DNA from: Parvibaculum sp.
GTDB taxonomy: Bacteria; Pseudomonadota; Alphaproteobacteria; Parvibaculales; Parvibaculaceae
Direction: 5' to 3'
Assembly (NCBI GenBank): GCA_014359855.1
Contig: JACIYQ010000179.1
Coordinates: 1 to 51,810 of the forward strand
DNA length: 51,810 nucleotides
Below, piece after piece: positions 847 through 50,686 of this stretch. The stretch's first letter is position 1; the number at the start of each line of letters is the position of its first letter. Made by a program: the position numbers and the translations under genes. The notes beneath the pieces are model-generated. The model saw nothing but the letters and a program-made list of their open reading frames with translations. It did no database searches and was not told the DNA's origin.

Positions 847-2127
847 TCAGATCACCAGCGTCCCGGCGAGCGTGATCGCGATGTCGGCGAGCGTGGCGTC
901 GGGGCTCGCGGGCGCGATCACCTCGAGGAGGTCGCCCGGTTCGAGGGCGGTCTCGCTCACGGCGATGAAGACGGCGATGGAGGCGCTCGCCGCGAAGCGG
1001 ATGGTGCCGATGCTCGTGCCGTTGCGCTGGACATCGAGGTCCGTCTCTGCGGTGGCCGCGACCCCAGCCGTGCCCTGGCTGCCAGCAAGATCGACCTTGA
1101 GCCGCGAGCGCCGGGCCACGACCGTGCGCAGCAGCACCTCCGAGGCGGCGGTCGCGCCCGCCTTAGCGAAGGCGAAGTCCGCCGGCGGATCGGCGGCGTC
1201 CTCGGTCTCGACCACTTCGAGCGCGAGCCAGGTGCGCTCCATGCCCCGGAGCTCGCCTGAGGCGCTGACGAACACCGTAAGCTCGAACCAGTCGCCGGCG
1301 ACGACCGGGAGGACCGCGCTCGCGATGTTCCGCATCTGGTTGCTGTAGCCGCTGTCGCCGCGGACGATGAAGGAGCCGCCACCGATCACGCCGCCGCCGT
1401 TCATGCGAATCTCGACCAGCTGGCTCGTCGGCGAGGTCTGCCACTCGATATTGCCCGTGAGCCGGACCTTGGTTACACCGGCCGGCACGGTAAGCCGCGT
1501 CGGCTGGCCGGCGTCCCAGAGCGCGTCGCTATCGTAGACGGCGCTCTGCCAGGAGATCGGAACATAGGCGCCGGTCGTCGAGACGCTGAAGTTGGTGGTC
1601 CGCCGCACCAGCGCGCCCCGGAAGGGCAGCAGGGCGCGCTGGAAGATGCCGACACCGGCAGCACCCCAGAACACGCCATCGAACTGGAGCACGTCGCTGG
1701 CGACGGCGGCACCGATCGCGACGTCGGTCAGGTCGTTGAGAGCACCGGCGCCGCCGCCGACCCCGAAGAGATCGCTGCCATTGCCCTGCACCAGCACGGT
1801 GGCGTCGGGCAGGATGATGACCTCCGCGCCCGAACCCGCGTACTTGGCCCGGACCTCCTGGCCGCCGCTGGTCGCGTTCCGGATCGCGAGCCGCCGGTGA
1901 TTGGCGGGCAGCGTCAGGACGCGCGCAGCCGTGAGCGTGCCGGTGAGGACGATCAGGCCGTTGCGGTTGGCTTGCGCGCTGGTCAACGTCACGTTGGCGT
2001 CAGCCATAGCCAGTGACAACGCCCGATTCATGGAGTTGTCGAGGGCATCGACCGCGTCGTTGATCGTGACCTCCTTCTGGTTCTGGGCGGCGGCGACATG
2101 GGTCACGGCCAGATTGGGGCTGGGCAT
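847..2127 (-). CDS. DUF2793-like phage tail/fibre protein
   Basis: 426 aa; N-term NLAVTHVAAAQNQKEVTINDAVDALD resembles DUF2793; follows the large tail protein. Confidence 0.6.
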   Translation of the reverse strand: MPSPNLAVTHVAAAQNQKEVTINDAVDALDNSMNRALSLAMADANVTLTSAQANRNGLIVLTGTLTAARVLTLPANHRRLAIRNATSGGQEVRAKYAGSGAEVIILPDATVLVQGNGSDLFGVGGGAGALNDLTDVAIGAAVASDVLQFDGVFWGAAGVGIFQRALLPFRGALVRRTTNFSVSTTGAYVPISWQSAVYDSDALWDAGQPTRLTVPAGVTKVRLTGNIEWQTSPTSQLVEIRMNGGGVIGGGSFIVRGDSGYSNQMRNIASAVLPVVAGDWFELTVFVSASGELRGMERTWLALEVVETEDAADPPADFAFAKAGATAASEVLLRTVVARRSRLKVDLAGSQGTAGVAATAETDLDVQRNGTSIGTIRFAASASIAVFIAVSETALEPGDLLEVIAPASPDATLADIAITLAGTLVI

Positions 2128-5100
2128 CAGGTAACCTCCAAGGTGACGGCGCGCGGAAACCCGCGACCCACGACCGCGCTCATTTGATGGACGGCGACCG
2201 AAAGTTCCGTGGGAACAGCGCCGAAATCGGCCAGGATGTCAGCATTGGCGTAGACGGCGCTCGGGCTGGTGGAGGTGAGCGTGCGCTTCACCGCACCGCC
2301 GGGACCATCGAGGATGTCGACCTCATATGCTTCGCTGGCTTCCCCAAGCGGCACCACGCCGGTCCCATCCTTCAGCTCGCCGCCAATACGCGTGCGACGG
2401 ATCCAGGAGAGCGTGATGTTCGCTGGGCTGCCGCTCGTAGTCGCGCGAACGTTCCACGGCGCGTAGGGTCTGAGGTCGCGGCCGCCGTGGCTCTGGACGA
2501 GCGTCTCGGCATCCTCGAACAGCGTGCCGAAGCCGACGGCGCGCCAGGATCGCGGCAGTCCGAGATCGCCGAGCGCCGTGACAAGCGTCTCGACGTCATC
2601 AGGATCAAGCAGCACGAAGACCTCACCTGCCGCATGGCCATCGACGAAGACGTCCGTGCCGCGTCGGCCGCGCAGCAAGCCGGTGAGCGTGTAGGAGCCA
2701 TCCGGGTTCAGCGTGACATCACGGAACTGGATGATCTCGGGCTCGCCATTGGCCTTCAGCACGAGGGCCGCATTGGCGCCATTGACCAGAGCCTCCTGAG
2801 TGACGCTCTCCAAGCGCTCGCCGCCGGTGGTCATGAAGACGGTGAGGCTGTTCTCCTCGTCGGTGCCGAACGGCGAACGAGGCGCGCCCAGAGCATTCGC
2901 CGTGGCGCCCCATGCTGCTTCGCTGAGGGCCCGCCCGACCTGCGCCCATGCGGAGCCGTCGGCGCTGCGATAGAGGGCAGCGCCCGGCCAGCCGGGACCG
3001 CCGAACCCCGCCATCAGATAGTAGATCCGCGAGCCCGCACCGCCCGCATCATCGACATCGCGCAGGAGCGGCAGGTCGGGCAGGATAAGCCGCGTGGCGG
3101 CGTTCGCGCCCACCAGCTGGACGGGTTTGCCGGAACCGCCATCGGCGACGACCGAGGAGACATAGGTGGCGGACGTCTCCGAGACGCCCTTCACCGCGAG
3201 CGAGAAATCCGCGCCCACATCGAGCCGGTTGATCCGCGTCCGGAAGGTCGATCCGGTGGCGAAGGCCACATCCACCACATCGGTCGGATCGAGCCGCAGC
3301 CAGTCTGGCGGCAGTTCGGCTTCGTAGGCGCTGCGCTCGATCCAGGCGCTGTAGAGCGTCTTGGCGGCGATGCGCTTGGCCGTTGTGGCGTCGATGGCGA
3401 GCGCCAGTTCGAGGCTCGCCTGGTTGCGCGAGTGCATGGTGGGGAGCGGCAGCGAGGCCCGCTTCTCGCTCTGCGTGCCTTGTTGGTAGTCGGCGTCACG
3501 GTCCATGTAGACGACGGCGACGCGCTCGGGCAGCTCGACTTCCTGCGTGCGGCGCTCGCGCCAGCTTTCGCCCGTCTGGCTGTCGAGCGGCACGAGGTAT
3601 TCGGCCGGGATGGTGGCGACCGGCGCGCGCCCGCGATTTCGGAAGCGAAGCGTGTCGTCGGTTTCGGCGGCGTCGAAGAAATAGGCCTGCGCCAGCGGCT
3701 CGATCGCGCCGCGCACGGTGGTCTGCCGGCCGATCACATAGCCGGGCACGGATGGCGTGAGCTCGGCGACGTCAATGTCGGCGAGCCCGAGGCCGGCGCG
3801 CCCGCAGAGATCGGCGACGATGGACGACAGCGCCTCACCCTCGCCACCGCCGCGATTGAGGAACAGCCGGGCCCAGCCGCTGCTGCCGCGCACCAGATGG
3901 GTGTCGGTGACGGCGTCGTAGACCTGCGCGCCCTGTTCGCTGACCGCACCCGGCCAGATCTCATTGAGCATGATGGCGCCCGTTGCCGTGTCGAGCTGGA
4001 CGACGCGCGTCGAGCGCATCAGCGTCCAGCGCTGGCCCCGCAAGCGGCTCTGACCGAAGAACGGGCCCTCGTAGTTGATCTTGTGCGGGACCGCCGTCTT
4101 CCAGACGATGCCGGTGTCGGCGCGCCACTTGATCGTGTAGATCGTCCCGGCCGAGCCGCCGTTCGACATCGTGATCTGGAAGATGACGCTGTCGTCGGTG
4201 GCGTCGTAGGTCAGTCCGCCGGCATCGCTGTAGAACCCCGTCGCGCCAGCTTCGATCTGCGCAGGCGTGAAGCTCGCCACTTTCTCGAAGGTGACGCCGA
4301 GCGACTGGCCGGTGAGACCGTCATACTGCGCGAAGGCTGAAACCCGGATGCGGTAGAGCCCGAGGCTGGTGTGGTTCAGACTGCTCGATGTCGCGCTCGC
4401 CAGAATCCAGCCATCGCCATAACCCTCTCCGACGGCGCCGCCGATTGCACCCCGGATGCGGGATTCCGTCACAGTCTGGCCGGCGCCCCAGACGTAGCCC
4501 ATGCTGTCGGCGCGCAAGAGCCCGATGTCGTTGAACAGCGATCCGGTCAGCAGGAAATCGACCCGACCGGACGGCCCGTAGGCCGAGATCATTCCCATCC
4601 ACGTCGTCGTCACGAAGCGGGTCGTGGTGTTGGAAAGGCCGGTGCTGGTGAAGCCGAAGCGGCCCACTTCCTTCAGCGCGTTCGGCTCGACACGGATGAT
4701 CGGCCGCGAGTTGCCCGAGCCTACCGTCAGGTAGAGGTGACCGTCCTCGCCGCAGAACAGCGTGCTCGGGAAATTGTTGGGCGTGACGGCGGCAACGTCC
4801 GTCATTCGCGCCTGGCGGTCCTCCGCCATGGTGCGCAGATCGAAACGGCGGATGCCGGCGGCTTCGGCGTTGCTGCTCGACGAGACGAAATAGCCGTAGC
4901 CGCGCCGCCAATCGATCGCGAGGTCGCTGATCTGGTAGGACCCGAAATAGCCGCCTTCGCCCGTCGTGATGAAATCCAGCAGCTGATAGGGCTGCTGCGC
5001 GGCGCGGCGATAGGTGATTTCCGCCGTGATGTTTGGGATGCGGTTGCCGAAATCGGCGAGCGCCAGATCCTCGAAGACAATGACGCAGAGCCCGCGATGC

Positions 5101-5639
5101 GCAGGTGCGCGACCGGCGCCCACATGCGCTTCGATCAGCGGATCCGGTAATTGAGCCTCGCTGCCGCGATGAAAACGGAAGCGCAGGTTTGGCTTGGCGA
5201 CGTCAGGGCTCGATCCGGTCTTGTCATAAATGAGCTTGCCGTCGGCCCAGATGCGCAGCACGTCCTCGGCTGGGCCCTCACCGAAGCTCAGCGCGAAGGA
5301 CGCGAAATAGGAATAGCTGATCGATGTCTGGGTGCTGCGCCCGCCGCCGCCCTTTCCGCCTGAGCGGGTGCGGGTGACGTTCTGCTGCTCGCGGATCCCC
5401 GACGACCAGATCATGTTGCCGGCCATGCGCAGCGTGCCGTAGCCGATCGGGATCGATGCGCCGTAGGCGGAGGACGAGACGGTCAGATCGCCGAGCCGCG
5501 GACCCTCGGTCGTGACGTTCTGTCCCTTGGCGGGAAACAAGAGGCTGCCGACGACAGAGCCCACCAGCCAGCCGGCTTGCCAGCCGAGACCGACGGCGGA
5601 GCCGAGCGCGGCGCCGCCCACTGCAACGAGGATGGCCAT
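2127..5639 (-). CDS. Phage tail tip / host-specificity protein (GTA rcc01698 / gpJ-like)
   Basis: 1170 aa, Gly-rich membrane-like N-terminus, position after NlpC/P60 and DUF2163 genes. Confidence 0.8.
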   Translation of the reverse strand: MAILVAVGGAALGSAVGLGWQAGWLVGSVVGSLLFPAKGQNVTTEGPRLGDLTVSSSAYGASIPIGYGTLRMAGNMIWSSGIREQQNVTRTRSGGKGGGGRSTQTSISYSYFASFALSFGEGPAEDVLRIWADGKLIYDKTGSSPDVAKPNLRFRFHRGSEAQLPDPLIEAHVGAGRAPAHRGLCVIVFEDLALADFGNRIPNITAEITYRRAAQQPYQLLDFITTGEGGYFGSYQISDLAIDWRRGYGYFVSSSSNAEAAGIRRFDLRTMAEDRQARMTDVAAVTPNNFPSTLFCGEDGHLYLTVGSGNSRPIIRVEPNALKEVGRFGFTSTGLSNTTTRFVTTTWMGMISAYGPSGRVDFLLTGSLFNDIGLLRADSMGYVWGAGQTVTESRIRGAIGGAVGEGYGDGWILASATSSSLNHTSLGLYRIRVSAFAQYDGLTGQSLGVTFEKVASFTPAQIEAGATGFYSDAGGLTYDATDDSVIFQITMSNGGSAGTIYTIKWRADTGIVWKTAVPHKINYEGPFFGQSRLRGQRWTLMRSTRVVQLDTATGAIMLNEIWPGAVSEQGAQVYDAVTDTHLVRGSSGWARLFLNRGGGEGEALSSIVADLCGRAGLGLADIDVAELTPSVPGYVIGRQTTVRGAIEPLAQAYFFDAAETDDTLRFRNRGRAPVATIPAEYLVPLDSQTGESWRERRTQEVELPERVAVVYMDRDADYQQGTQSEKRASLPLPTMHSRNQASLELALAIDATTAKRIAAKTLYSAWIERSAYEAELPPDWLRLDPTDVVDVAFATGSTFRTRINRLDVGADFSLAVKGVSETSATYVSSVVADGGSGKPVQLVGANAATRLILPDLPLLRDVDDAGGAGSRIYYLMAGFGGPGWPGAALYRSADGSAWAQVGRALSEAAWGATANALGAPRSPFGTDEENSLTVFMTTGGERLESVTQEALVNGANAALVLKANGEPEIIQFRDVTLNPDGSYTLTGLLRGRRGTDVFVDGHAAGEVFVLLDPDDVETLVTALGDLGLPRSWRAVGFGTLFEDAETLVQSHGGRDLRPYAPWNVRATTSGSPANITLSWIRRTRIGGELKDGTGVVPLGEASEAYEVDILDGPGGAVKRTLTSTSPSAVYANADILADFGAVPTELSVAVHQMSAVVGRGFPRAVTLEVT

Positions 5640-5645
5640 GAGAAT

Positions 5646-6080
5646 TCAGTGTCCGGGAGAGCGAAAGCGAAAGGCGAACTTGATCTTGTCCGGCCATTCG
5701 CCGGCATAGGGCTCTTCGATCACCTGCCGGCGCGTCGCATGGGCGTGCAGCAGATGGGGATGGCCGAGCCGCTCGGTCAGGAAGCCGCAGTGGCAGGGAT
5801 AGGCCTGGTCGGCGAAGACGAGCACGTCGCCGGGGCGGGCTTCCGGGATGGCGACGCCGTCCATGTTGGACCGGAAATGCTCGACGAACCCCTGACCCTG
5901 CGCGCGGCGGCTGTAGCCAGTGCTGTCATAGTCTGAAAGATCGAGCGCCCGGGCGACGCAGACCACCAGCCCGACGCAGTCGATGCCCGAGCGCGTCCGC
6001 CCCTGATGTCGCCAGGGCACGCCGAGCCAGCCGCGCGCCTCGGCGACGATCCTCTCAGGGATGATGATCTCAGCGGGCAT
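5646..6080 (-). CDS. NlpC/P60 family phage cell-wall peptidase
   Basis: 144 aa; GIDCVGLV catalytic Cys motif and HCGFL; classic GTA/siphophage order. Confidence 0.85.
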   Translation of the reverse strand: MPAEIIIPERIVAEARGWLGVPWRHQGRTRSGIDCVGLVVCVARALDLSDYDSTGYSRRAQGQGFVEHFRSNMDGVAIPEARPGDVLVFADQAYPCHCGFLTERLGHPHLLHAHATRRQVIEEPYAGEWPDKIKFAFRFRSPGH

Positions 6081-7650
6081 CGGGATAGCTCATCATGGCG
6101 TCCTGTCCCGGCACGTAGGGCTCGCCGCGGAAGTTGAGGACGTTGGCAAAGCGGGCGACGCAGGTGTCGAGGCGCTTGTCGCAGCCCGGGTGGATGCGGA
6201 AGAGGTCGCCGACCCGGATCGCGTAACCCATGGGCAGGAACAGCTCGGCGCGGCCCGTCGCTTGGGTCCACGCTTTCACCTCAATCGAGCGTCCGGCATT
6301 GGGTCCGCTCTCCCAGGTCAGCACGCCGCCGGCGAACCAGCCGTCACTCGCGCGGGACTCGTCGACCGATGCCGTGATCACCGCCCGGTCGACGACATCG
6401 GTGACAATGCCGGCACGGCTCCACGACTCCATGGCCGCGAAAACGGCCGTTCCGTCGGTGGTCTGCTGGCCGACGGAAGTGTCGTAGGCGGGCTGGTCAG
6501 CAGCGGTCGTACCCGCACCGACGCAGCGGTAGACGCGGTCCTCAAACACTGCCGCCGTGCCGACGCCTGTCGTCGTGTCGGTGAAGAAGCCGCTGACGGC
6601 GTCGAGCGCGGCGTTGCACACCGAGCCACTGACCCTCGTGCCGTTGAAGATGACGCGCAGCTGCCGGGTGCCCGAGGGGACCAGCGCGTCGGCGACCTGG
6701 CGGAGCGTCCAGACGCCGGTCATCGCCTCATTGCCGGTGTCGAGCGGCGTGGCCAGCACAGCGCCCAATTCATCGAGCAGCTGCACGCGCAGCCGTCCCT
6801 GATCGACGGTGTTGCCGCCGCCATTGGCCCGCCAGCCGCCCACGGTCAGGCGGTAGTCGCCGGCATCGAGGATGGCCTCATCGAGAACATCGGCGAGATC
6901 GACGGTCTGGCGCAGCTCGAAGTTCGCGACATTGCCGCCTTCGAGGAAATGCGTGCCGGACTTCGGCCCGAGCGTGCCGCTCGCGGTCTTGGCGGCCGCC
7001 GACCCGGAGGCGACAGTCCAGCCGGAGACATTGCCTGCGTCGAAACCAGGATTGACGAAGGGAATCCCCGTCGTCGCGAGCGCCGAGGAGGTTCGTACTC
7101 GGACGGTGTCGCCGACAGCATAGGACGTCGAACGCTGGATCTCGGGCGGGTGGATCGGCACCTTGCAGCGCGGGTCGCCGAGATCGGCGCGGCATTCCGG
7201 GCTGTAGAGCTCGCCGATACGCTGGGAGAGCGCCTGCGTCATGCCGCGCAGCTCGGTGCGGAAGACGCCTTGCTCGGTCAGCACCACCTCGCCAAACCAG
7301 CCGCGCCGCATGCGCAGCGCGCCCATGGACGGATCGGCCCAGTTGACGAGGAAGATGCGCACCTCCGCCTGATCAAAGAGACCCGCGCGCAGCTCCTCCT
7401 CGGTGATGGCCTCGTCATCGAACACGCCCTCGACGTCGAGATTGTCGACGCTCAGGCTCGCATCGTTGGCGATGGCCGTGCGCGAATAGCCGGAACTCGC
7501 CTTGTAGACCTTGCCTTCAAACGACAGATCGCGGTCGTGGTCGGTGAAGAAGAACTCCTTACCGTCCAAGCGTGAGATGCGCCAGCAGGTGGCGAGCGTC
7601 GTCACCGGTCCGGCGAGATGCGCCGCGAGGGCCGCCGAGGTCGATTTCAT
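6070..7650 (-). CDS. DUF2163 (baseplate hub-like) tail protein with inserted domain
   Basis: N-term MKSTSAALAAHLAGPVTTLATCWRISRLDGKEFFFTDHDRDL and C-term GCDKRLDTCVARFANVLNFRGEPYVPG; start placed at 7650. Confidence 0.85.
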   Translation of the reverse strand: MKSTSAALAAHLAGPVTTLATCWRISRLDGKEFFFTDHDRDLSFEGKVYKASSGYSRTAIANDASLSVDNLDVEGVFDDEAITEEELRAGLFDQAEVRIFLVNWADPSMGALRMRRGWFGEVVLTEQGVFRTELRGMTQALSQRIGELYSPECRADLGDPRCKVPIHPPEIQRSTSYAVGDTVRVRTSSALATTGIPFVNPGFDAGNVSGWTVASGSAAAKTASGTLGPKSGTHFLEGGNVANFELRQTVDLADVLDEAILDAGDYRLTVGGWRANGGGNTVDQGRLRVQLLDELGAVLATPLDTGNEAMTGVWTLRQVADALVPSGTRQLRVIFNGTRVSGSVCNAALDAVSGFFTDTTTGVGTAAVFEDRVYRCVGAGTTAADQPAYDTSVGQQTTDGTAVFAAMESWSRAGIVTDVVDRAVITASVDESRASDGWFAGGVLTWESGPNAGRSIEVKAWTQATGRAELFLPMGYAIRVGDLFRIHPGCDKRLDTCVARFANVLNFRGEPYVPGQDAMMSYPDAR

Positions 7651-8249
7651 GGTCTGATCTCCAGCACTGGGATCTGGCCCCAACTGCCGAGCTGATAGGT
7701 TTCGATCGTGAGGTCCATCTGATCGCTGTCGAAGCGGACGGGCACGTCGAACTCGAAGTCCGCCGTCACCTGGACGCCGGATATGGGGGCGACGGTGAAG
7801 GTCACGAGGCCGGTCGCCGTGTTGACGCTCCAGCCAGAGACCGCCTCGGCGCCGTCAAGGGTGATCTTCACCGTTCCGGGAACGGGCTTGGTGATGACCC
7901 GGGTTTCGACCTCGCCACCGCTCGCGTAGGTCTTCACGAGCTGGAACGTCTTGGTCGCGCCGTCGCCTTGCCCGATCAGCTGGGCCAGCGCCTGGTAGTC
8001 GGTCCAGTCCTTGAAGCGGAAGCCGTAGGCGCGTCCGCGTCGCGCGCGAAAGAAGGCGATGAGGGCGGCCACCTGATCGCGTTTCTTCAGGCCGTGCGCC
8101 ACGTTCCATTTGCCCCGCGCGGCGGCCCAGTTGGCGTTGCGCCGCTCGTGTCCCGAAACCGTCGTCACCACGGTGGTCGAGTAGCCGGGGCCGCCGGACG
8201 CCCCGTAGGAGATGTCCGGCGGGAACTGAACTTCGTGAAAGCCGCTCAT
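7647..8249 (-). CDS. DUF2460 / TIGR02217 family tail protein
   Basis: 200 aa; FHEVQFPPDISYGASGGPGYSTTVV..GHERRNANW. Confidence 0.9.
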   Translation of the reverse strand: MSGFHEVQFPPDISYGASGGPGYSTTVVTTVSGHERRNANWAAARGKWNVAHGLKKRDQVAALIAFFRARRGRAYGFRFKDWTDYQALAQLIGQGDGATKTFQLVKTYASGGEVETRVITKPVPGTVKITLDGAEAVSGWSVNTATGLVTFTVAPISGVQVTADFEFDVPVRFDSDQMDLTIETYQLGSWGQIPVLEIRP

Positions 8250-8276: not shown

Positions 8277-10778
8277 TCAGAGATTACGCCGCGCCCGCTC
8301 CATGGCGCGGGCGGCGTCGGCGGCGAGCTGCCCCTGGGCGTAGCGAAAGCTGCCAACATCCGGGGTGGAGATGTTCATCACCACGTTGACCGGTGGACGG
8401 GTTTCGCGTGCGGCGCCGATCGCGGCGAGCTGAGCCCGCGACAGCACCATCTCACCGCGCTGCAGGATCGCGGGCACCTCGTCGGCACGAAGCCCCGCGA
8501 GACCGCCGTCGTGGAAGCGCGGCGCACCCGCAAAGGCGAGTGCCGGGACGAGCCGCTGCTGGGCGGGACCCCCGGCGACGCCGCCTTGATGGAATATGCC
8601 GGCGAACAGCCCGCCTCCGCCGCCGAACAAGCCGCCGAGCAGTCCTCCGTTGCCTCCGCCGAGCGCATTGGCTAGAGGCCCGAGGATCGCGGAACGAACC
8701 GCGATGCGGGTGATGTCGGCGAGGATGCTGTCAGCGAGCGCCTTGAAGTCGATCTTGCCGCCGGTCACGAAGTTGGCGATGGCGTCCTCTGCGCTGCGAA
8801 AGGCGCTGGTGAGAGCGCTTCCTAGCCCCTTGCCCCAATCCATCGCCTCGCCAGCATAGCGAGACAGCTCCTCGCGAACCGCCGCCCAGCCGGTTGCCGC
8901 CTGCGTGGCCGCCGAAGCCGCCGCTTCACCGGCGGCGCGGCTTGCCTCCGCGGCGCGTGCGGCGGAACCGGCCGAGCCTTCGCCATCTCCTGCGGCATCG
9001 CCTCCGGCGCCGCCCCCGGTACCAGCAATGGCTGCGAAGGCTTCATCGAGGCGCTCCGTCGCGCCGGCCGCATTGTCGATCTCGGTGTTCGCGCCCGCCA
9101 TGGCCTCCCGGAGCGCCGCGATTGACGCGAGGGGCGCGCCCGCCAGCTCTCCCAGCGCCGTCGCCGTCTCTCGCGCACTGTCGGCGGCAGCGCGCGCATC
9201 CTCGGCGAAAGCCGACAGACCGAAATCCGGCGTCGCGAAGGTATCGGTCTCGAACGCGGCGGCGAAGGCATCACGCGCGGCGTTGCCAGCCCGGCTCGCG
9301 GCGCCCGCAAACTCGTTCTCGATCCGGCCGAGATCGACGTCCGGCACCAGCTCGATGGCCCGCTCGATGCCGATCGCAGCCAGACCCGCGTTGACGCCTT
9401 CGAGGAGCGCGTTGATGCCGTCGACCGCGCCGTTCAGCATCGACTCCAGCCCGGCTACAGCCAAGTTCGCCGCCTGGATCGTCAGATCGCCGATCGCCCG
9501 AGGCAGGTTGCTCCAGATGACGACCATCGCATCGAAAGCGCCCTGAAACGTCCCGATGGTGCGGTTGCCGAAGGCGACGACGGCTTGCGTAGCGGCCTGC
9601 AGCACGTCGGCGATGCTCGCTTGAATGCCGCTCCAGGCGGCGTCGATGCGCGCTTTCAGGACGCCGGCCAGCAGTCCGATCCTGTCCCAGACCTCGGCTG
9701 CCACGTCACCCAGAAGGCCGAGCGCGGCGCCGAAGCCGCCGGTCGCCTGCACCAGCCGACCGAACTGGTAGATCAGCTCACCCGCCGCCACGATGAGCGC
9801 GCCGATGCCGGTTCGGATCAACGCGCCGCGCAGGAAGACCAGCGCGGTGGCAAGACCGCGAACCGAGGCGGCGGCCACAACCATACCGGCGACCCAGCGC
9901 CCGGCGATGAAGGCGGCGAAGGCAGCAGCGGTCGAGGCGAGCCGACCGATGTTGTCGAACAGGAGCCGAATGCCCTGACCAAGCGGACCGGTCGTGCGCG
10001 AGATCGCCGCCAGCGCGTCGGCGACGGCTTCGAGCGCCGGGGCGGCGGCAACGGCCAGCTGGTTCGACAGCCCGCGCCAGATCAGACCGAGGCGTGAGAT
10101 CGCATCGTTCGTTCGCTCGATCTGATCGGCGTCCTGCTCGGACACGACCACGCCGAAATCGCGAACGTCCTGTGTCGCCTGCCGGAGGGTCGCCGTGTCG
10201 ATCCGGGAGATGGCGATGCTGCCTTCCTCCCCGAACAGCTGCCCGGCGACCGCTGCACGCTCAGCCGCGGGCACGAAGTCTTCAATCGCCTGATTGATAC
10301 GACCGACACGCTCATCCAGCGGCAAGGCCAGCAAGGCCGAGGCCGAAAGCCCGAGCCGTTCGAGCGCCGCGACGGCAGGACCGGTCCCGGCGGCCGCCTG
10401 GCTGAGGCGGCGGGTGAGGTCCTTGGTCGCCTGCTCGATGCCGGACATCGACACGCCGGCCAATTCGCCGGCTCGTTCGAGAACCTGAATGCTCTCGACG
10501 GTGGTCCCGAGCGATTGGGCGAGCTTGGCCTGCGCATCGACGACCTGAAGACCGGAGCGGATCATGGCCGCAGCGCCCGCGGCGAAGGCAGTCGCCGCGG
10601 CGGCGGCTGCGATCTGCACGCGCCGATAAAAGGCCGCGACACGGCCATTGGCGGCGTCCATCTCCCGCGACAGCCGACGGAAGCCTTGCTCCCCTGCGTC
10701 GCCGATGCCTTGCAACTCAGCGCGGACTTCACGCCCCCCGACCACGGCAAGGCGAACGGAGACGCGTTTCTCAGCCAT
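8277..10778 (-). CDS. Phage tail tape measure protein
   Basis: 833 aa, Ala-rich coiled-coil N-term, hydrophobic middle, directly after the frameshifted tail chaperone. Confidence 0.85.
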   Translation of the reverse strand: MAEKRVSVRLAVVGGREVRAELQGIGDAGEQGFRRLSREMDAANGRVAAFYRRVQIAAAAAATAFAAGAAAMIRSGLQVVDAQAKLAQSLGTTVESIQVLERAGELAGVSMSGIEQATKDLTRRLSQAAAGTGPAVAALERLGLSASALLALPLDERVGRINQAIEDFVPAAERAAVAGQLFGEEGSIAISRIDTATLRQATQDVRDFGVVVSEQDADQIERTNDAISRLGLIWRGLSNQLAVAAAPALEAVADALAAISRTTGPLGQGIRLLFDNIGRLASTAAAFAAFIAGRWVAGMVVAAASVRGLATALVFLRGALIRTGIGALIVAAGELIYQFGRLVQATGGFGAALGLLGDVAAEVWDRIGLLAGVLKARIDAAWSGIQASIADVLQAATQAVVAFGNRTIGTFQGAFDAMVVIWSNLPRAIGDLTIQAANLAVAGLESMLNGAVDGINALLEGVNAGLAAIGIERAIELVPDVDLGRIENEFAGAASRAGNAARDAFAAAFETDTFATPDFGLSAFAEDARAAADSARETATALGELAGAPLASIAALREAMAGANTEIDNAAGATERLDEAFAAIAGTGGGAGGDAAGDGEGSAGSAARAAEASRAAGEAAASAATQAATGWAAVREELSRYAGEAMDWGKGLGSALTSAFRSAEDAIANFVTGGKIDFKALADSILADITRIAVRSAILGPLANALGGGNGGLLGGLFGGGGGLFAGIFHQGGVAGGPAQQRLVPALAFAGAPRFHDGGLAGLRADEVPAILQRGEMVLSRAQLAAIGAARETRPPVNVVMNISTPDVGSFRYAQGQLAADAARAMERARRNL

Positions 10779-11453
10779 CTTGATCAGTCCTGATTTGCGC
10801 GTTCAGTCCGCGCACCATCATGCCCTCCACCTCGGGCAGCAGTTCCGCGCAGACGAGGGTGTCCAATCCAAGCGCGTGCGCGCAGGCGAGCGCGGCCGTC
10901 ATGTCGAGGCCGAGGATCGCACCGGGGACAGCACGCAGCTGCCCCGTGAGCTTTTTGGCGAGATCCCAGACCTGCCAGCCTTCGATCGTCTGCGGACGAT
11001 TCAGGACGGCGGGGCATTCGCTGCAGGTGCCGCGACAGGATCGGCAATACTGGTCGCCCCCGCTGAAATGCCATTCGGCGAGGGCGCGGAGCCGTTTTTT
11101 TCCGCTTCCAGCAGAAGGCCCTTGGACACGTAGCGGACCTGGAATGCCTCGAAGATCGGCAGGATGTCCAGCAGCGCGTCGATGCCTTCCGGTGTGACGG
11201 GAACCGGATTGCCTTCAGCGTCGCCCACCCCCTCCCATTCCAGCACGACCAGCCGTGCCAGGGCCTTGGCCATGGTGACCGCGATGGTCTCGTTCGACGC
11301 GCCTTCGGGCAAGGCAGCCACCGCCGGATCACTGCGGGCGGCGGCCATGAGCGAGGTGGTCAGGGGAGCGACGCGCACGCGCACGTCATGTCCGAGGTCG
11401 AGCCAGCTCGGCTCGCGCGACAGGTTCAGGCGGATCATGCGTATTGTCCTCAT
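10771..11453 (-). CDS. Predicted G-T tail assembly chaperone fusion made by -1 ribosomal frameshift (about 227 aa)
   Basis: After A_AAA_AAC the -1 frame is open as RLRALAEWHFSGGDQYCRSCRGTCSECPAVLNRPQTIEGWQVWDLAKKLTGQLRAVPGAILGLDMTAALACAHALGLDTLVCAELLPEVEGMMVRGLNAQIRTDQDG*, TGA at 10773-10771 overlapping the tape measure start. Confidence 0.75.
11001..11453 (-). CDS. Tail assembly chaperone (G-type, zero frame product)
   Basis: 150 aa between tail tube and tape measure; contains A_AAA_AAC slippery site at 11100-11094. Confidence 0.75.
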   Translation of the reverse strand: MRTIRMIRLNLSREPSWLDLGHDVRVRVAPLTTSLMAAARSDPAVAALPEGASNETIAVTMAKALARLVVLEWEGVGDAEGNPVPVTPEGIDALLDILPIFEAFQVRYVSKGLLLEAEKNGSAPSPNGISAGATSIADPVAAPAANAPPS

Positions 11454-11489: not shown

Positions 11490-12761
11490 TCAGACGTAGC
11501 TCGCGACGTCGTTCAGGAGATGCGCGCGCAGCATGGTGCCTTCGACATCGTCGAAGGCGGCGCGCCAGTCGAAGCTCGCCTCGACCCCGCCGGGGCCGGA
11601 GACGGCGTATTTCGGTTTGGGCAGAAAGACCCGCGGCAGCTCGAAGCGGAGCGCATAGCCTTCCGGGAAGGTGAACCCGTATTCGAGTCCGACAGGATCG
11701 CCATTGGCGGCCTCGGCCACGAGCGTCGCGCCATCGAAGCGTACCGACATCGATCCTTCAGCCGAGGCGAAAGTGGGATCGGCCGCCTCGATTTTGCCGT
11801 CCTCGCGAATGACCCGGACGCGTTCGAGATTGTTGGAGAAGGTCAGACTGCCGCCAGTGACGCCGGCGAGCGCCGCACCGTCGCGTCGGATGAAGCCGCG
11901 CCCCTGGCTGAAGCGCCGGAGCGCGTAGGCCGTCGGATTGGCGTCGACCGTCGCAGAGAAGCGTTCCTCGCCTTGGGCCACGAGCTGGAGGCGGGCATTT
12001 GCCGGTCCCTCCTGGCCCATCTCGAAGTTCAGGCTCTCCATCACCGTGCCGAGGTGACGGAAGAACACCGGCGTCGTGAGCTTCGGATGGCCGACTTCGA
12101 TCGTGTAGCTCGGGATGTCGTCAGCGCCGCTCTCCCAGACATGGGCATAGCCGCCGCCGGTCAGGGTCGCCGCCGAAGCTGCCGCGGCAGAGGCGGAGAT
12201 CGTGAAGGCGTTCCCGGCCGGCCCGACGACATCGAATGCGATGACGAGGGTCTGCGTGCTCGTCGGCCGCGAATACGTGCATTTGGCGATTTCGGGATCG
12301 GCCGATGCGTTGAGGTCGCTGACCAGCTGATCGACGGTCTGCGTGACCGTTCCCTGGATCTGCGTCTCCTCTGCGCCGGCAGTACCGGAGACGAACGTCC
12401 AGACCGTACCGTTCAAGGTGATCGTGTCGCCCGCCGTGGGATTGACGGCGAAGACGATCGAGCCGCTGGCGCTCGTGGGCGTGGTCACCGGGTCTCCGAA
12501 AAGGCCCGTCAGCCAGAAGCCCGTTCCACGCAGGTCGAGCGGGATGTCCAACTGGCCCTCGTCGGTGATGAGGCCGCGATAGGGATCCTGCGCATTGCGC
12601 CCGCGTCCGAGCAGCGGGTCGTCCCCGAGCGGCTGGGCCGAGGAGAGATCGGTCGATTTGAAATCGAGGCTCTGATAGCCGGTGAGCGGCGCGACCCCGT
12701 AGCTTGCCTCCCGGCACGCCTTGAGGGTGGCGTCCGCGCCATATGCGCGCGCCTTGGGCAT
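11490..12761 (-). CDS. Phage tail tube (major tail) protein
   Basis: 423 aa; position and N-term KARAYGADATLKACREASYGVAPLTGYQSLDFKSTDLSS. Confidence 0.75.
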   Translation of the reverse strand: MPKARAYGADATLKACREASYGVAPLTGYQSLDFKSTDLSSAQPLGDDPLLGRGRNAQDPYRGLITDEGQLDIPLDLRGTGFWLTGLFGDPVTTPTSASGSIVFAVNPTAGDTITLNGTVWTFVSGTAGAEETQIQGTVTQTVDQLVSDLNASADPEIAKCTYSRPTSTQTLVIAFDVVGPAGNAFTISASAAAASAATLTGGGYAHVWESGADDIPSYTIEVGHPKLTTPVFFRHLGTVMESLNFEMGQEGPANARLQLVAQGEERFSATVDANPTAYALRRFSQGRGFIRRDGAALAGVTGGSLTFSNNLERVRVIREDGKIEAADPTFASAEGSMSVRFDGATLVAEAANGDPVGLEYGFTFPEGYALRFELPRVFLPKPKYAVSGPGGVEASFDWRAAFDDVEGTMLRAHLLNDVASYV

Positions 12762-13329: not shown

Positions 13330-13977
13330 CTACCGCCCATCGACCCAGTTGCGGACGACCAGGCCGGGCAGCCGCTCCTGCCAGGTGTTCGCTGCGGAGG
13401 CGACGTCGAGCCGCTTCCTGAATGTCACCTGCGGCACCAGAATGAAGATCGGCACGGTCACCAAGCCGCGCCCGCTCCGCACAGCGGCGGCACTGGCCCT
13501 GGCGTATCCGCCGCGCTTGCCCGTCCGTGCCCGCATGTTGTCGGCGACGAGCAGAGACGCAGCGTTGCGCCGGTAGACGAAGCGCAGCCGCTGCCCGGTC
13601 CGCCGTTCCCATCCGCCGGGCGTAATCTTGCGGCCACCGTCGCCAAAGCGTCCGGCGGCAGAGGTCGGGATGGCCAGGAAGAAGCCCTTGGTCGACCGGA
13701 TGGTGGCGCCGTCTTCGTAAATGCGAATGATGCCCGGCGCCTTCGACCAGACGAGCCCCGCCGCCCGGATGCTGTTCTGGCCCTTGGGGAAGGTCTCGGA
13801 CCGCCAGGTGCGCGCCAGCCGAGGGCCGAGCCCCGCATTGGTGATCTGCGTTCTGAGATCGGCCTTGAGTCCCTCCGCCGCCTCACCGACACCGGCCGTG
13901 ACAGCCTTTTCGGCCGCCTTGACCTCCTCGGCCATGATGCGACCGAGGTCACCGACGATGGTCGCGGACAGCCTCAT
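13330..13977 (-). CDS. DUF6441-like head-tail/neck protein
   Basis: 215 aa from ATG at 13977 (MRLSATIVGDLGRIMAEEVKAAEKAVT...). Confidence 0.6.
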   Translation of the reverse strand: MRLSATIVGDLGRIMAEEVKAAEKAVTAGVGEAAEGLKADLRTQITNAGLGPRLARTWRSETFPKGQNSIRAAGLVWSKAPGIIRIYEDGATIRSTKGFFLAIPTSAAGRFGDGGRKITPGGWERRTGQRLRFVYRRNAASLLVADNMRARTGKRGGYARASAAAVRSGRGLVTVPIFILVPQVTFRKRLDVASAANTWQERLPGLVVRNWVDGR

Positions 13978-14288
13978 ACCGGTCTCAACTCCACAGTCCA
14001 GACAAGGCGTTCGCTGTCGCGCACGGGCTCTCCCTGGATTACGTAGTCGGCGCCGTCGATTTCGAAGGCATCGGATTCCGCCAGGTTCGGGGCGTCGCGC
14101 GTTCGCACATCGCCAATGACGCTTTCGCTCCAGATGCGCGTCTCGCCGAAGCTCTCGACACGATCCGGCTGGCGCAAGACAATCCGGACCGTCACCGGCG
14201 CACCCGTGCCGCCCGCCCGCCAGAAGGCATCCCGCGCGAGATTTGGATCGGCGAAGAGGTCGTCGATCGCCGCGGCAAAGATGCTCAT
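13974..14288 (-). CDS. Head-tail joining protein
   Basis: 104 aa between capsid and neck genes; ATGA-type overlap with downstream gene. Confidence 0.6.
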   Translation of the reverse strand: MSIFAAAIDDLFADPNLARDAFWRAGGTGAPVTVRIVLRQPDRVESFGETRIWSESVIGDVRTRDAPNLAESDAFEIDGADYVIQGEPVRDSERLVWTVELRPV

Positions 14289-14290
14289 GC

Positions 14291-15313
14291 TCAGTTGCTG
14301 GAGAAGATGCGCACGGCGAGACGCGGACGCTTGTTGATCGGCAGGATCGAGGCCTCGGTCTTGACCTCAATGGCGCTGCCGTCGGGTCGAGCGATCTGCC
14401 GCGCGTAGATCGGAAGGCCGACCGTGTTGACCGTCTCGATCAGGTTGGCCGGGGCGCCGTGGGTGACGAAGGTGTCGAGCGTGCCGAGCGGGAACGCGAT
14501 GCCCTCGCCAGAGGGGATCAGCGTTTCCGTTGCGCCGGTCGAGAGCGTGACGGTGGCGTTGTACTCCTCGAACAGGATGCCGGCGAAGGGGAAGCGCCGG
14601 CGGGTGTCCTCGCGCAGCGGCTGCGCCCCGGTCGAGGAATAGTACTTGTAGGCCTCCTCCACCTTGGCGTGGCCGATCAGCTTGTCGAAGAACTCGGGGC
14701 TCACCATCGCCAGCACACCGGTCATGGTCTCCCCCTTGAGCTCGGTCTCGACCTTGCGCAGAACGTCGCGCACCTTGCCCTGGACCTGGGTGCCGGCGGT
14801 GCCGAGCACGAAGTCGGTTTCGAGCTGCGCCAGCCCGAACTCGGTGAAGTAGTTGTAGAGCGTGGTGCCGGCGCCGTCCTTGACGATGCCGCGCAGCGCG
14901 TTGACCTCCATGTACTCGCGCGTCTGGGCGTGCTTGACCCGCATGCGGGTGAGCTTGCGCTCCATGACGGTGGCGAGCGGGTCGGCAGCATCGGCCACGC
15001 CGAAGCCGCGCACGCCCTGGATGTCCTGGGGCGTGATCACGTCGTCGTGGGGAATCCACGGCACCGTGAAGGAGCGCATCGAGCGCGTGTCGCGATTGGC
15101 GACGGTGGCGGGGCCGCCGAGCGGCACGGTGGGCAAGAGGTTGAGCACGCCTTCCGCCTGCTCGATGACGACGGAGCGCTGTGTGACGCCCTCGAAGCGG
15201 AACAGGCCCATCTGCCCGAGCCGCGTATAGATATTGGGCAGGATGTTGATGGCCTGGGTCATCTCGGCGAGCGAGTAGCCGCCCGCGTCGAACGGGTTGA
15301 TCATGGCGACCAT
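14291..15313 (-). CDS. Major capsid protein E (lambda gpE family)
   Basis: 340 aa; NPFDAGGYSLAEMTQAINILPNIYTRLGQMGLF...VPWIPHDDVITPQDIQGVRGFG. Confidence 0.9.
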   Translation of the reverse strand: MVAMINPFDAGGYSLAEMTQAINILPNIYTRLGQMGLFRFEGVTQRSVVIEQAEGVLNLLPTVPLGGPATVANRDTRSMRSFTVPWIPHDDVITPQDIQGVRGFGVADAADPLATVMERKLTRMRVKHAQTREYMEVNALRGIVKDGAGTTLYNYFTEFGLAQLETDFVLGTAGTQVQGKVRDVLRKVETELKGETMTGVLAMVSPEFFDKLIGHAKVEEAYKYYSSTGAQPLREDTRRRFPFAGILFEEYNATVTLSTGATETLIPSGEGIAFPLGTLDTFVTHGAPANLIETVNTVGLPIYARQIARPDGSAIEVKTEASILPINKRPRLAVRIFSSN

Positions 15314-15407
15314 GATGTCGGGTCTCCTTGGGATGGAACGGGCATGAAAAAGGCCACGAAGGCGGACGCCTCGGAGCCGGTGACGGATTGGATCTGACGA
15401 GCGCGGA

Positions 15408-15797
15408 TCAGGCGGTGTCGCGCGGCACGATGCCGGCAGAGCTCAACTCGGCGTGCTTGACGGCCGTCTTGGCCGCGTCATCGACGGAGGCGTCGAAGAC
15501 GAGCGCCGCCTTGGAGACGATCGCCGGACCGCGGGCAACCACGAGGCCGGTCCTGTCGCCGGCCGTCGCGTCGACCGCCTCGATCAGGACGGCCGTTGCG
15601 ACCTCTGCACCCTCATCTCCGACGACCTCGGCGTCCGGCGACAGGCGGTACTTGCCCGAGGCGGTGATCCGGCCGAGGACGGATCCGAGCGCGTAGTTCG
15701 TGCCAGCCTTGAGGGTCACAGCCTCGCGGCAGTAGCTCGCGTTGAGCTCGTATTTGAGCAGGTCGCCGAGGGTCGGCGACATGGTGAGAACGGTCAT
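15408..15797 (-). CDS. Head decoration protein (lambda gpD-like)
   Basis: 129 aa; GDLLKYELNASYCREAVTLKAGTNYALGSVLGRIT; upstream of capsid. Confidence 0.85.
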   Translation of the reverse strand: MTVLTMSPTLGDLLKYELNASYCREAVTLKAGTNYALGSVLGRITASGKYRLSPDAEVVGDEGAEVATAVLIEAVDATAGDRTGLVVARGPAIVSKAALVFDASVDDAAKTAVKHAELSSAGIVPRDTA

Positions 15798-22621: not shown

Positions 22622-22843
22622 TTATGCAGTCCAAGAGCGCATCCTCTCGAACATGCGCCGCACGGCATAGCTGCGCGCCACGGATACCAGCGTGAATAGA
22701 GCGCCGATCAACAGATTGTCGCTCAGGGACACCTGCAGACCGAACAGCGGGAAGACCGCGATCTGGGTCAGCACGGCCACGCCGTAACCGATCGCGACAT
22801 TGCTCAACGCCTCGATCAGGGACATTCGGCGCGACTGCATCAT
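22622..22843 (-). CDS. Small membrane protein (DUF7220-like)
   Basis: 73 aa, two hydrophobic segments; stop/start overlap with MTase gene. Confidence 0.6.
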   Translation of the reverse strand: MMQSRRMSLIEALSNVAIGYGVAVLTQIAVFPLFGLQVSLSDNLLIGALFTLVSVARSYAVRRMFERMRSWTA

Positions 22844-24162
22844 GCGGCGTCCTGATCGCTGTCACGAGTGCCGACGCGCTCGGTCTTCACCTCGTCGAAG
22901 CTGCGATTCTCGCCCTCCAGCCTTGCCGATTTCCCGGTGAAGGCCTGCCAGCGGTTGACGATCACGTCACAAAAGGTCTCGGAGAGCTCAAGCCCGAAGA
23001 CGCGTCTCCCCGTCCGCTCGCCTGCGATGAGTTGCGAGCCCGAGCCGGAGAACGGCTCGTAGCAGATTTCCCCCGGCACGGTGTGCAGCTCCATCGGCAG
23101 CGTGAACACGCGCACCGGTTTCGAGGTCGGGTGCTCCCGCGTCTCGATCTCGCTCGACGGGATGGACCACACCGTCGTCGGCCAGTTCTCGAAGCCTTCG
23201 CGGTTGACGCGCGGCTTGTTGCCCGAGCGCCAGCCGAACAGGCAGGGCTCGTGCGCCCACAGCATGATCGAGCGCGTGAGCACCGGACGGCTCTTGGCCC
23301 AGATGATCTGCTGGTGATGCAGCACGTCGAACTTGGACCAGCAGGCTTCCAGCATTGCCTGGCGCCGCGAGGCATGCCAGCAATACCAGGCCGCGTCCTC
23401 CTTGATGGCGCAGTCGATGGCGACCTGCATGAAGGCCTCGTAGAACTGCGGCCCCTGGGATGAATCGTCCCAGTGCTTCTGCTCGATGTAGTCGTCGGAC
23501 CAGTCCTTGTTCGCGATCTTCTTGGCGCGGGCGGACGCGTTCTTCTTCGTCGGATGGTTGGTGCCGTCATAGTCGACGAGATAGGGCGGATCGGTCGCGA
23601 ACAGCGCGGCGCGCTCGCCGTTCATCAGGCGGGTGACGTCCTCGGCCGAGGTCGAGTCTCCGCAGAGCAGGCGGTGGTCCCCGAGGATCCAGAGATCGCC
23701 GCGGCGGGTGACGGGCGTGGCGGGCGGCTCCGGAACCTCGTCTTCGTCCACCAGCCCCTCGACGGGCGCCTCGGCCAGGAGACGGGCCAGTTCGTCGTCC
23801 TCGAAACCGGTCAGCGCCAGGTCGAACTCGTCGAGCTTCAGATCGGCCAGTTCGAGCTTGAGCAGCTCGTCGTCCCAGCTCGCATTCTGATGCGAGCGGT
23901 TGTCCATCAGCCGGTAGGCGCGCAGCTGCGCCGGCGTCAGGCCATGCGCGACATGCACCGGCACGCTCGTCATGCCGAGGCGCTTGGCCGCCTCGTAGCG
24001 GGTGTGACCGACGATGATCACCATGTCCTCGTCGACGACGATCGGCTGACGCCAGCCGAACTCGGCCAGCGAGGCGGCGACCGTGGCGACAGCCTCCTCA
24101 TTGCGGCGCGGGTTGCGCGCATAGGGCACAAGCTTGTCGATCGGCGTTTCGACGACGTCCAT
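22840..24162 (-). CDS. ParB/Srx N-terminal domain fused to DNA methyltransferase
   Basis: PIDKLVPYARNPRRNEEAV..VVDEDMVIIVGHTRYEAAKRLGM; DPPY motif (FATDPPYLVDYDG) and FSGSGSQLIAGERTGRRVFGLELS; start placed at 24162. Confidence 0.9.
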   Translation of the reverse strand: MDVVETPIDKLVPYARNPRRNEEAVATVAASLAEFGWRQPIVVDEDMVIIVGHTRYEAAKRLGMTSVPVHVAHGLTPAQLRAYRLMDNRSHQNASWDDELLKLELADLKLDEFDLALTGFEDDELARLLAEAPVEGLVDEDEVPEPPATPVTRRGDLWILGDHRLLCGDSTSAEDVTRLMNGERAALFATDPPYLVDYDGTNHPTKKNASARAKKIANKDWSDDYIEQKHWDDSSQGPQFYEAFMQVAIDCAIKEDAAWYCWHASRRQAMLEACWSKFDVLHHQQIIWAKSRPVLTRSIMLWAHEPCLFGWRSGNKPRVNREGFENWPTTVWSIPSSEIETREHPTSKPVRVFTLPMELHTVPGEICYEPFSGSGSQLIAGERTGRRVFGLELSETFCDVIVNRWQAFTGKSARLEGENRSFDEVKTERVGTRDSDQDAA

Positions 24163-24554
24163 GGTCGGTCCGGTGCGATGGGTGAAGGATCTGATCCGGC
24201 GGTCGCGAAGCCCGCCGTTGTTCTGTGCCGGCGAAACGGGTCCCGCTTCGCCGATGCGCTCGAAACGAAACGCCCCCGACCGGCGGCTTCGCCATCGTCG
24301 AGGCACGCAGACGCCTAAGTGTTTGGATTCACGAGCGCGAGGATGCTGGCGAAACGAAATGGCCTATTTCGGCGCCGTCACTGGGCAAGCGTCGCGCCAT
24401 TGCCGCCAGCATACGATTTCGGCCAGGGAGGAACCGTGCATCGCCGGTCGGTGGTCATCCCCGCACGCGGCTCGCCCGAGCATGACCAAGAACTAGCCCA
24501 AATCGCCGATCTGTGTCTCGCCGGGAAATGTCTCAGCGAAAATTGTCTCACGCA

Positions 24555-38879: not shown

Positions 38880-39322
38880 CAGAAAACATCCTGTCCCGGC
38901 TGGCCGCGCTGAAGACCACGCCGACGCCCGACCTCAAGAAGCAGTGGCGCGAACTCTTCGACACGGAGGCGCCGCCTTACAATCGGCGCTTCCTCGAAAG
39001 CCGGCTCGCCTATCGGATCCAGGAATTGGCTTATGGCGGTTTGAAACCGGCGACCATCGAACGCCTCGAGGCCTTGGGCGAGCAACTCGACGGCGGCAAC
39101 ATCGTGCTGCGCCGGATCCGCGCCGACGACAAGCCGATCGCCGGCACGCGGCTGATCCGCGAATGGCAGGGCGTCGAGCACACGGTCACGGTGCTGAACG
39201 ACGGTTATGAATGGCAAGGGCGTCCCTACCGCTCGCTCTCCGCCATCGCGCGCGCCATCACCGGGACGCGCTGGAACGGCTGGGTCTTTTTCGGCCTCAA
39301 GAACCGGCGAGGCCAAGCATGA
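38876..39322 (+). CDS. DUF2924 domain protein
   Basis: MTENILSRLAALKTTPTPDLKKQWRELFDTEAPPYNRRFLESRLAYRIQELAYGGL; start placed at 38876. Confidence 0.85.
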   Translation: MTENILSRLAALKTTPTPDLKKQWRELFDTEAPPYNRRFLESRLAYRIQELAYGGLKPATIERLEALGEQLDGGNIVLRRIRADDKPIAGTRLIREWQGVEHTVTVLNDGYEWQGRPYRSLSAIARAITGTRWNGWVFFGLKNRRGQA

Positions 39323-40650
39323 CGAAATCGCCCGCATCCGCCAAATCCATCCGAAAGCTGCGCTGCGCGGTCTATACGCGCAAGTCGACGGAAGAAGGGC
39401 TGGAGATGGAGTTCAACAGCCTCGATGCCCAGCGCGAGGCCTGCGAAGCGTATATCGCCAGCCAGAAGCCCGAAGGCTGGGTGCTCTATCCTGAGTCCTA
39501 TGATGACGGCGGCTTCTCGGGCGGGACGCTGGACCGGCCTGCGCTGAAGCGCCTGCTCGCCGACATCGAGGACGGCCGGATCGACGTGGTCGTCGTCTAC
39601 AAGATCGACCGGCTCAGCCGCTCGCTGATGGATTTCGCGAAGCTCGTCGAGGTGTTCGATCGCGGCGGGGTCACCTTCGTCAGCGTGACCCAGTCGTTCA
39701 ACACGACGACGTCCATGGGGCGGCTGACGCTCAACATCCTGCTCAGCTTCGCCCAGTTCGAGCGCGAGGTGATCGGCGAGCGCATCCGCGACAAGATCGC
39801 CGCCTCGCGCAAACGCGGCATGTGGATGGGCGGCTTCGTGCCGCTCGGCTACGAGGTCAGGGACCGCAAGCTGGTGATCAATGATGCCGAGGCCGCGACG
39901 GTCCGAATGATCTTCGAGCGCTTCGTCGAGGTGGGTTCGGCGACCGCGTTGGCCCGGGCGCTCGCGGCCGAGGGCGTGCGGACGCGGCGCGGACGGCTCG
40001 TCGACAAGGGCTTCCTCTACAAGCTGCTCAACAACCGGGTCTATATCGGCGACGTCGTGCACAAGGGGACGGCCTATCCCGGCGAGCACGAAGCCATCAT
40101 CACGCGCGCCTTTTGGGACAAGGTGCACGGAATCCTGCGCGAAAGCCCGAGGATGCGCGCGGGCCGGACACGGGCCGCGACCCCGGCTCTTCTGAAGGGC
40201 CTCATCTTCGGGCCGACCGGCTGCGCCATGACGCCGACGCACACGCGGCGCGGCGACAAGCTCTACCGCTACTACGTCAGCCAGTCGGTTCTGAAGCGCG
40301 GCGCCGATGCTTGCCCGGTGGGACGCGTGCCCGCCGCCGAGATCGAGGGCGCGGTGGTCGACCAACTACGCGGCCTCCTTCGTGCCCCGGAGGTGATCGT
40401 CGGCACATGGCGGTCGGCGCGACCCGAGATCGACGGTTTGTCCGAGGCCGAGGTGAGGGACGCGCTCGAAGGGCTCGACCCGCTGTGGGACGAGCTGTTC
40501 CCCGCCGAGCAGGCCCGCATCGTCCAGCTCCTCGTGGAGCGCGTCGAGGTCGGACAGGGAGGCGTCGATATCCGCCTCCGCGTCGATGGGCTGGCTCGTC
40601 TGGTTCATGAGCTTGGCGGCATGGCCGACGATCCGCGGAGGGCAGCATGA
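39319..40650 (+). CDS. Large serine recombinase
   Basis: AVYTRKSTEEGLEMEFNSLDAQREAC; YKIDRLSRSLMDFAKL; SMGRLTLNILLSFAQFEREVIGERIRDKIAASRKRGMWMGG; start placed at 39319. Confidence 0.95.
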   Translation: MTKSPASAKSIRKLRCAVYTRKSTEEGLEMEFNSLDAQREACEAYIASQKPEGWVLYPESYDDGGFSGGTLDRPALKRLLADIEDGRIDVVVVYKIDRLSRSLMDFAKLVEVFDRGGVTFVSVTQSFNTTTSMGRLTLNILLSFAQFEREVIGERIRDKIAASRKRGMWMGGFVPLGYEVRDRKLVINDAEAATVRMIFERFVEVGSATALARALAAEGVRTRRGRLVDKGFLYKLLNNRVYIGDVVHKGTAYPGEHEAIITRAFWDKVHGILRESPRMRAGRTRAATPALLKGLIFGPTGCAMTPTHTRRGDKLYRYYVSQSVLKRGADACPVGRVPAAEIEGAVVDQLRGLLRAPEVIVGTWRSARPEIDGLSEAEVRDALEGLDPLWDELFPAEQARIVQLLVERVEVGQGGVDIRLRVDGLARLVHELGGMADDPRRAA

Positions 40651-41210: not shown

Positions 41211-41837
41211 ATGCTTCTGTCCGAAGTCGTCGAGATCCTGCCGGGGGTTCCGTTCCGCACTCGCATCGAGAGCGAAAAGAACGGCGCCTGCATCGTCGTG
41301 CAGGCGCGCGACCTCGTCGGCGACGGCACGGTCGACCTCGCAGGCGCCGCCCGCATCGCGGCCCCACCCAGTTCGACACGGGGACTTTTGCGGCCGGGCG
41401 ACGTCGTGCTGCAGCCGCGCGGCAATCGCTACTCGGTCGGCAAGGTGGAGGAGGTCAAAGGTCCTGCCGTGGCGGCGGCGCCCCTCTATATCCTCCGACG
41501 CCGCGCAAGGGGCATCGATCCCGACTTCCTCGTCGCCTTCCTGGAGGCGGCGTCGACCCAGAGCGCATTGCGCCAAGATGCCGTCGGAACCCATGTTCCG
41601 CAGATTCCCAGGCAGGCCCTCGAAGCCCTGCACATCGAGCTTCCCGACCTCTCAAGCCAGATCAGGCTCGCCGACCTCGCCCGGCTCGAACGGCGCGAGA
41701 TCGAGGTGATGGACCGCCTTCGCGTAGCGCGGGGCCGGCTATTCGACCTGGCTCTGCGGGAGATCGCGAAGAAAAGCCGGAAGCGCGCCAACGCTCCCGG
41801 CTCCATCTCGGGCCTCAAAGGTGCGTCAACACCCTGA
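41211..41837 (+). CDS. Half-size HsdS-like (single target recognition domain) protein
   Basis: 208 aa MLLSEVVEILPGVPFRTRIES...DLVGDGTVDL..LRPGDVVLQPRGNRYSVGKV...HVPQIPRQALEALHIELPDLSSQIRLADL. Confidence 0.75.
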   Translation: MLLSEVVEILPGVPFRTRIESEKNGACIVVQARDLVGDGTVDLAGAARIAAPPSSTRGLLRPGDVVLQPRGNRYSVGKVEEVKGPAVAAAPLYILRRRARGIDPDFLVAFLEAASTQSALRQDAVGTHVPQIPRQALEALHIELPDLSSQIRLADLARLERREIEVMDRLRVARGRLFDLALREIAKKSRKRANAPGSISGLKGASTP

Positions 41838-41878
41838 GGTCCTTTGTCCAATTGTCTTAGACGAAAGGCAATCTACGC

Positions 41879-50596: not shown

Positions 50597-50686
<90 letters not shown>

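Follow-up and report, generated by a model that had tools for sequence, protein, structure and literature searches.

Sequence evidence for a probable programmed −1 frameshift at A_AAA_AAC, predicted to yield a G–T tail assembly chaperone with a DUF7697 C-terminal half in an alphaproteobacterial prophage

Frameshifted tail chaperones are well established (reviewed in PMC5009743), and in the lambda system the genes for gpG and gpGT lie between those for the tail tube and the tape measure protein, with a −1 frameshift in the 3′-terminal part of G adding a C-terminal T domain (PMC5009743, together with general knowledge). The window examined here—the whole 51,810-nucleotide stretch of Parvibaculum DNA that was analysed—has the same layout, its gene order being tail tube, G, T, and tape measure. 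Lambda slips at GGGAAAG, a heptamer that differs from the AAAAAAC of the window, and the likeness described here is one of layout; we know of no cysteine cluster in lambda T. Homologous genes are found in the Rhodobacter capsulatus phages RcOceanus, RcBaka, RcDormio, and their relatives (MW677520 and others), whose G is about 44% identical and whose T is 46% identical to that of the window. Gene order, the −1 slip point, and the four cysteines are the same in these phages, although RcOceanus has G_GGA_AAC in place of A_AAA_AAC. The genes were deposited as two tail assembly chaperone coding sequences, one of them joined from two pieces, and the accompanying genome paper refers to the frameshift usual in these genes (PMC8601537). 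Finally, for the tail chaperone genes gp12/gp13 of Acinetobacter phage Loki, a −1 slip at AAAAAAC itself has been proposed (PMC5313236); the Loki chaperone resembles T weakly in fold (TMq 0.66, E 0.47), with no sequence relation detected, and that phage differs from the window in having gp14 between the chaperones and the tape measure. The reading of the window pair as an ordinary lambda-style G/GT arrangement is well supported, with a hairpin, a metal-site pattern, and a reassignment of DUF7697 as the additions.

The features of the locus, with the evidence that defines each, are as follows.

11490–12761, minus strand: tail tube protein gene, immediately upstream of G (Phage_tube_2, E 6.4e-47)
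11001–11438, minus strand: gene G, tail assembly chaperone, zero-frame product (phrog_313; start shared with relatives)
11094–11100, minus strand: slippery heptamer A_AAA_AAC (sequence and conservation among T-encoding loci)
11001–11093, minus strand: zero-frame tail of G past the slip site, made up of 30 codons and the stop and overlapped by T (pN/pS, pLDDT)
10771–11094, minus strand: T part in the −1 frame, 107 codons plus TGA (open frame, T-frame pN/pS, AlphaFold model)
11055–11086, minus strand: hairpin, 7 nt downstream of the heptamer (minimum free energy, stability scan, synonymous constraint)
11014–11046, minus strand: four-cysteine cluster CxxC-x3-CxxC, T codons 19, 22, 26, and 29 (sequence and relatives)
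10774–10929, minus strand: DUF7697 (PF24752)/phrog_11212 region, C-terminal half of T (profile matches)
8277–10778, minus strand: tape measure protein gene (Tape_meas_lam_C, E 8.7e-23)

Seven A residues at 11101–11095 are followed by C at 11094, giving the in-frame codons GAA AAA AAC at 11102–11094. A sequence-only reading of this DNA had placed the heptamer at 11100–11094 and, beyond it, a −1 frame of 107 codons that ends in TGA at 10773–10771 and overlaps the tape measure start; re-reading the minus strand reproduced both to the base, with an overlap of 8 nt between the T stop and the gene starting at ATG 10778. As it had also remarked, T is absent from the list of open reading frames, which has no T-frame entry of at least 60 aa. 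The junction, given there as K/RLRALAEW, is among the details that required amendment: it is likely EKN-RLRALAEW, because AAC has already been decoded as Asn when both tRNAs slip together. The fused product is predicted from the sequence at about 222 aa. By composition alone, chance occurrence of the heptamer is not significant (two in the window versus 0.75 expected, with 19 of 100 shuffles reaching two), and it is conservation that decides.

The zero-frame product matches the PHROG family “Tail assembly chaperone” (phrog_313, E 1.9e-21); searches of the PDB by sequence and by fold gave no convincing match for G. An open reading frame of 150 aa upstream of the tape measure gene, as first described, is indeed present at 11453–11001, but its full length is probably not used: translation is likely to begin at the second ATG, 11438, to give 145 aa, because relatives begin there (MIRLNLS) and AGGA stands just ahead of that ATG. 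The 30 zero-frame codons past the slip site have pN/pS of at least 1.0 among pairs of relatives and are predicted to be disordered (pLDDT 43–52); this tail looks like a passenger without constraint at the protein level.

In the mechanism that we infer, for the slip and its efficiency as well as for the role in assembly, most ribosomes would read G to its own stop, and a minority would slip by −1 at A_AAA_AAC, where tRNA-Lys would re-pair from AAA to AAA and tRNA-Asn from AAC to AAA. The slip would probably be aided by the stable hairpin that starts 7 nt downstream, and slipped ribosomes would go on to make G–T. By analogy with lambda, many copies of G and few of GT may coat the tape measure protein, the T domain—here carrying a four-cysteine element that probably binds zinc—recruiting the tail tube protein.

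Conservation of the site was compared among homologues, as the sequence-only reading had proposed. When IMG/VR was scanned with G by itself, it returned 74 loci, of which two cut by contig ends were left out; A_AAA_AAC is found at the same point in 71 of the other 72. The exception (L037; metagenomic, 3339) is missing the C of the heptamer, AAAAAAAG, and a −1 slip there no longer enters T, the lost base being either a sequencing error or the mark of a dead copy. A larger set of 171 T-encoding loci was formed from these loci, phage records, genome contigs found by T, and loci that the DUF7697 model retrieved across the class. A heptamer occupies the same register in 170 of the 171: A_AAA_AAC in 164, among which are the window itself and two extracts of it, G_GGA_AAC in three, and A_AAA_AAA in three, one of these damaged. 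The genome-contig set is partly biased, its search pattern having contained KKR, whereas the G-based viral set is free of that bias. The sole T locus without a heptamer (L088) is a short contig with T broken across frames. Searching the whole class with a G profile added more distant G genes (L186, L187, and L188–L191); among them, L186 has A_AAA_AAC with T, and L187 has T in the −1 frame but GAG GGG GAA in the heptamer’s place. The earlier reading had named as counter-evidence any homologues whose two frames are separate and that lack a slippery site; these were also sought, and L187 and the broken L088 were the only loci without a canonical heptamer.

Protein-level selection acts on the T frame throughout. 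In pairs of relatives, its pN/pS is 0.23 where it overlaps G, 0.22 from the overlap to DUF7697, and 0.25 within DUF7697, as against 1.4–2.9 for the zero frame and third frame across T. The peptide ALAEWHFSGGDQYCR lies within T. Columns in which start codons are common were absent from the first 61 codons of T in 143 relatives and appear from codon 62 on; codon 67, ATG 10902 in the window, is ATG in 134 of the 143. With a selected T frame and no conserved start before codon 62, the N-terminal half of T can come only by frameshift from G. A 182-aa open reading frame in the third frame (10784–11332) was rejected, since its frame has pN/pS of 1.8–2.9 and 105 of the 143 relatives have stop codons in it.

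Downstream of the heptamer, stem arms at 11086–11074 and 11067–11055 (13 positions, with one C/A mismatch here) enclose a 6-nt loop at 11073–11068, and the region folds with a minimum free energy of −26.2 kcal/mol over 60 nt (z −2.11). Its position is distinctive across 46 loci: among all 36-nt offsets within 600 nt either side (mean −9.7 kcal/mol, sd 2.3), the one at +12 is the most stable, with a mean of −22.4 kcal/mol compared with −14.9 for the next best. Synonymous variation is likewise depressed, with pS of 0.205 in T codons 4–16 versus 0.53–0.58 elsewhere; zero-frame coding does not explain this, because codons 17–32 overlap the zero frame equally and have pS of 0.58. Paired states fill 84.8% of stem cells, versus at most 52.9% when the partner is slid, and covariation in the stem is modest (score 0.152 versus 0.116 in shuffles, a value that none of 500 shuffles reached). 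Applied to the most diverse set of 40 sequences, RNAalifold failed to return the hairpin, a search of Rfam gave a chance-level match only, and dinucleotide shuffling is weak evidence when taken alone (mean z −1.44 at the hairpin and −1.29 in a control stretch of T). Taken as a whole, the position and conservation of this element make it a probable frameshift stimulator. A conserved CTGGA upstream of the slip site resembles a Shine-Dalgarno sequence and is not separable from coding constraint.

These observations bear on other ways in which T could arise. It might be translated separately from an internal start such as ATG 10902, by coupling or re-initiation, with the heptamer incidental; this would fit the frequent ATG at codon 67, the DUF7697 and phrog_11212 models, which begin slightly ahead of that codon, and the separate second coding sequence annotated in cyanophage records. 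However, constraint between the heptamer and codon 55 matches that in the remainder of T, this stretch contains the four cysteines and has no conserved start, and the AAA-rich heptamer is conserved even though AAG is the usual lysine codon upstream in the same genes (239 of 304 cases). We therefore regard a separate start as very unlikely. Slippage during transcription, rather than ribosomal frameshifting, might also make the fusion, given that a run of seven A residues comes close to the length needed for RNA polymerase to slip. Yet the register is exactly that of X_XXY_YYZ, some relatives have G_GGA_AAC and thus no long homopolymer, and a hairpin at a distance of 7 nt fits ribosomal frameshifting, and we rate this explanation slightly lower again.

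Least credible, to the point of being negligible, is a miscalled A tract that breaks one continuous open reading frame. A seven-A homopolymer in a draft assembly of 389 contigs and 71.7% completeness would invite such an error, but the same tract and two-frame layout recur in 164 records, many of them named isolate genomes, and these independent records contradict it.

We hold, with little doubt, that the locus encodes a programmed −1 frameshift at A_AAA_AAC, predicted to yield the G–T tail assembly chaperone of a siphophage-type prophage. The frameshifted G/GT chaperone proposed at the outset is upheld by the phrog_313 match, the gene order, the conserved site with its selected −1 frame, and the joined coding sequences of the Rhodobacter phages.

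The cysteine cluster, YCRSCRGTCSEC, spans T codons 18–29 as counted from the heptamer. A CxxC-xn-CxxC pattern is present in 142 of 150 distinct T proteins, with n = 3 in 123, 7 in 10, and 9 in 9; the other eight, which are the most distant, have several cysteines in the same stretch at different spacing. Because the cysteine pairs are fixed while the linker between them varies in length, a metal site is suggested, and we describe the element as a putative metal site, probably for zinc and zinc-ribbon-like. The cluster had earlier been likened to a zinc knuckle: its presence is confirmed by conservation in relatives, but the CCHC pattern of a knuckle (C-x2-C-x4-H-x4-C) does not apply to an element of four cysteines with no conserved histidine. 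In the AlphaFold model of T (pLDDT 91.9), the cysteines form a loop between two helices, followed by a short strand pair and two further helices. Searches of the PDB by sequence and by fold returned no usable match for T, and among the better viral fold matches, at weak E-values, are chaperones of the tape-measure and tail-assembly kinds from phages F20, Solomon, and Loki. The open-access literature yielded no publication that links zinc to a T domain of this kind or describes its cysteine cluster or hairpin; use of a metal site by T is a testable idea.

The C-terminal half of T matches DUF7697 (E 2.9e-21; 75.6 bits versus a curated cut-off of 27) and phrog_11212 (E 5.9e-25), as do all of 40 diverse T sequences for both families. 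Both models omit the cysteine-bearing N-terminal half and are filed without assigned function, and no publication on DUF7697 was found in the open-access literature. We consider it likely that DUF7697 is not a free-standing protein but the C-terminal half of a distinct, metal-binding class of T, produced in alphaproteobacterial prophages solely through a −1 frameshift dependent on A_AAA_AAC and a strong 3′ hairpin, and that elsewhere G of this family is joined, at the same site, to an unrelated cysteine-free T. A likely function for DUF7697 and phrog_11212 would then be as part of a frameshifted tail chaperone, with a corrected gene model for a common prophage chaperone found at at least 581 related places in a bacterial genome collection. 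In E. coli, A_AAA_AAC is far less slippery than A_AAA_AAG (PMC5009743), a point that tells against the frameshift reading. The locus offers, from GC-rich bacteria, an A_AAA_AAC site that occurs naturally together with a conserved hairpin, beyond the host in which this heptamer is only weakly slippery.

Related records vary in the T that follows G and in annotation. Burkholderia phage BcepGomr (L077; EF523948, 2872) has the G-family heptamer leading into a differing, cysteine-free T, and its two parts are annotated separately as gp13 and gp14. In L188–L191, A_AAA_AAC or G_GGA_AAC leads from G into an unrelated cysteine-free T of 113–131 codons, or 112–131 when BcepGomr is included. Nostoc phage Nsp-JY21 and Synechococcus phage Sc-Yong805-1 have homologous G and T with A_AAA_AAA, and in both records T is annotated as a separate, truncated coding sequence starting at the G stop. 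The plasmid records that contain T are unannotated and were uninformative.

The surrounding genes are those of a prophage. Upstream of G lie the Phage_tube_2 tail tube gene and genes for head-tail attachment, capsid (Phage_cap_E), portal, and terminase gpA; downstream of T, the tape measure gene is followed by GTA-like tail-tip genes (DUF2460, phiJL001 Gp84-like, and Rcc01698-like, at 2127–8249). Lambda-type head genes for head decoration protein D, capsid protein E, and head-tail attachment (13974–15797, minus strand) adjoin the GTA-like tail genes. Near the terminase, one protein combines a ParB N-terminal domain with a DNA methylase domain (22840–24306, minus strand). On the plus strand, a large serine recombinase with Resolvase, Recombinase, and zinc ribbon domains (39211–40650) is a candidate prophage integrase, and a type I restriction-modification set of HsdM, HsdS, and HsdR (41821–49616) lies beside the prophage. 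A tRNA-Ser gene is located at 50597–50686.
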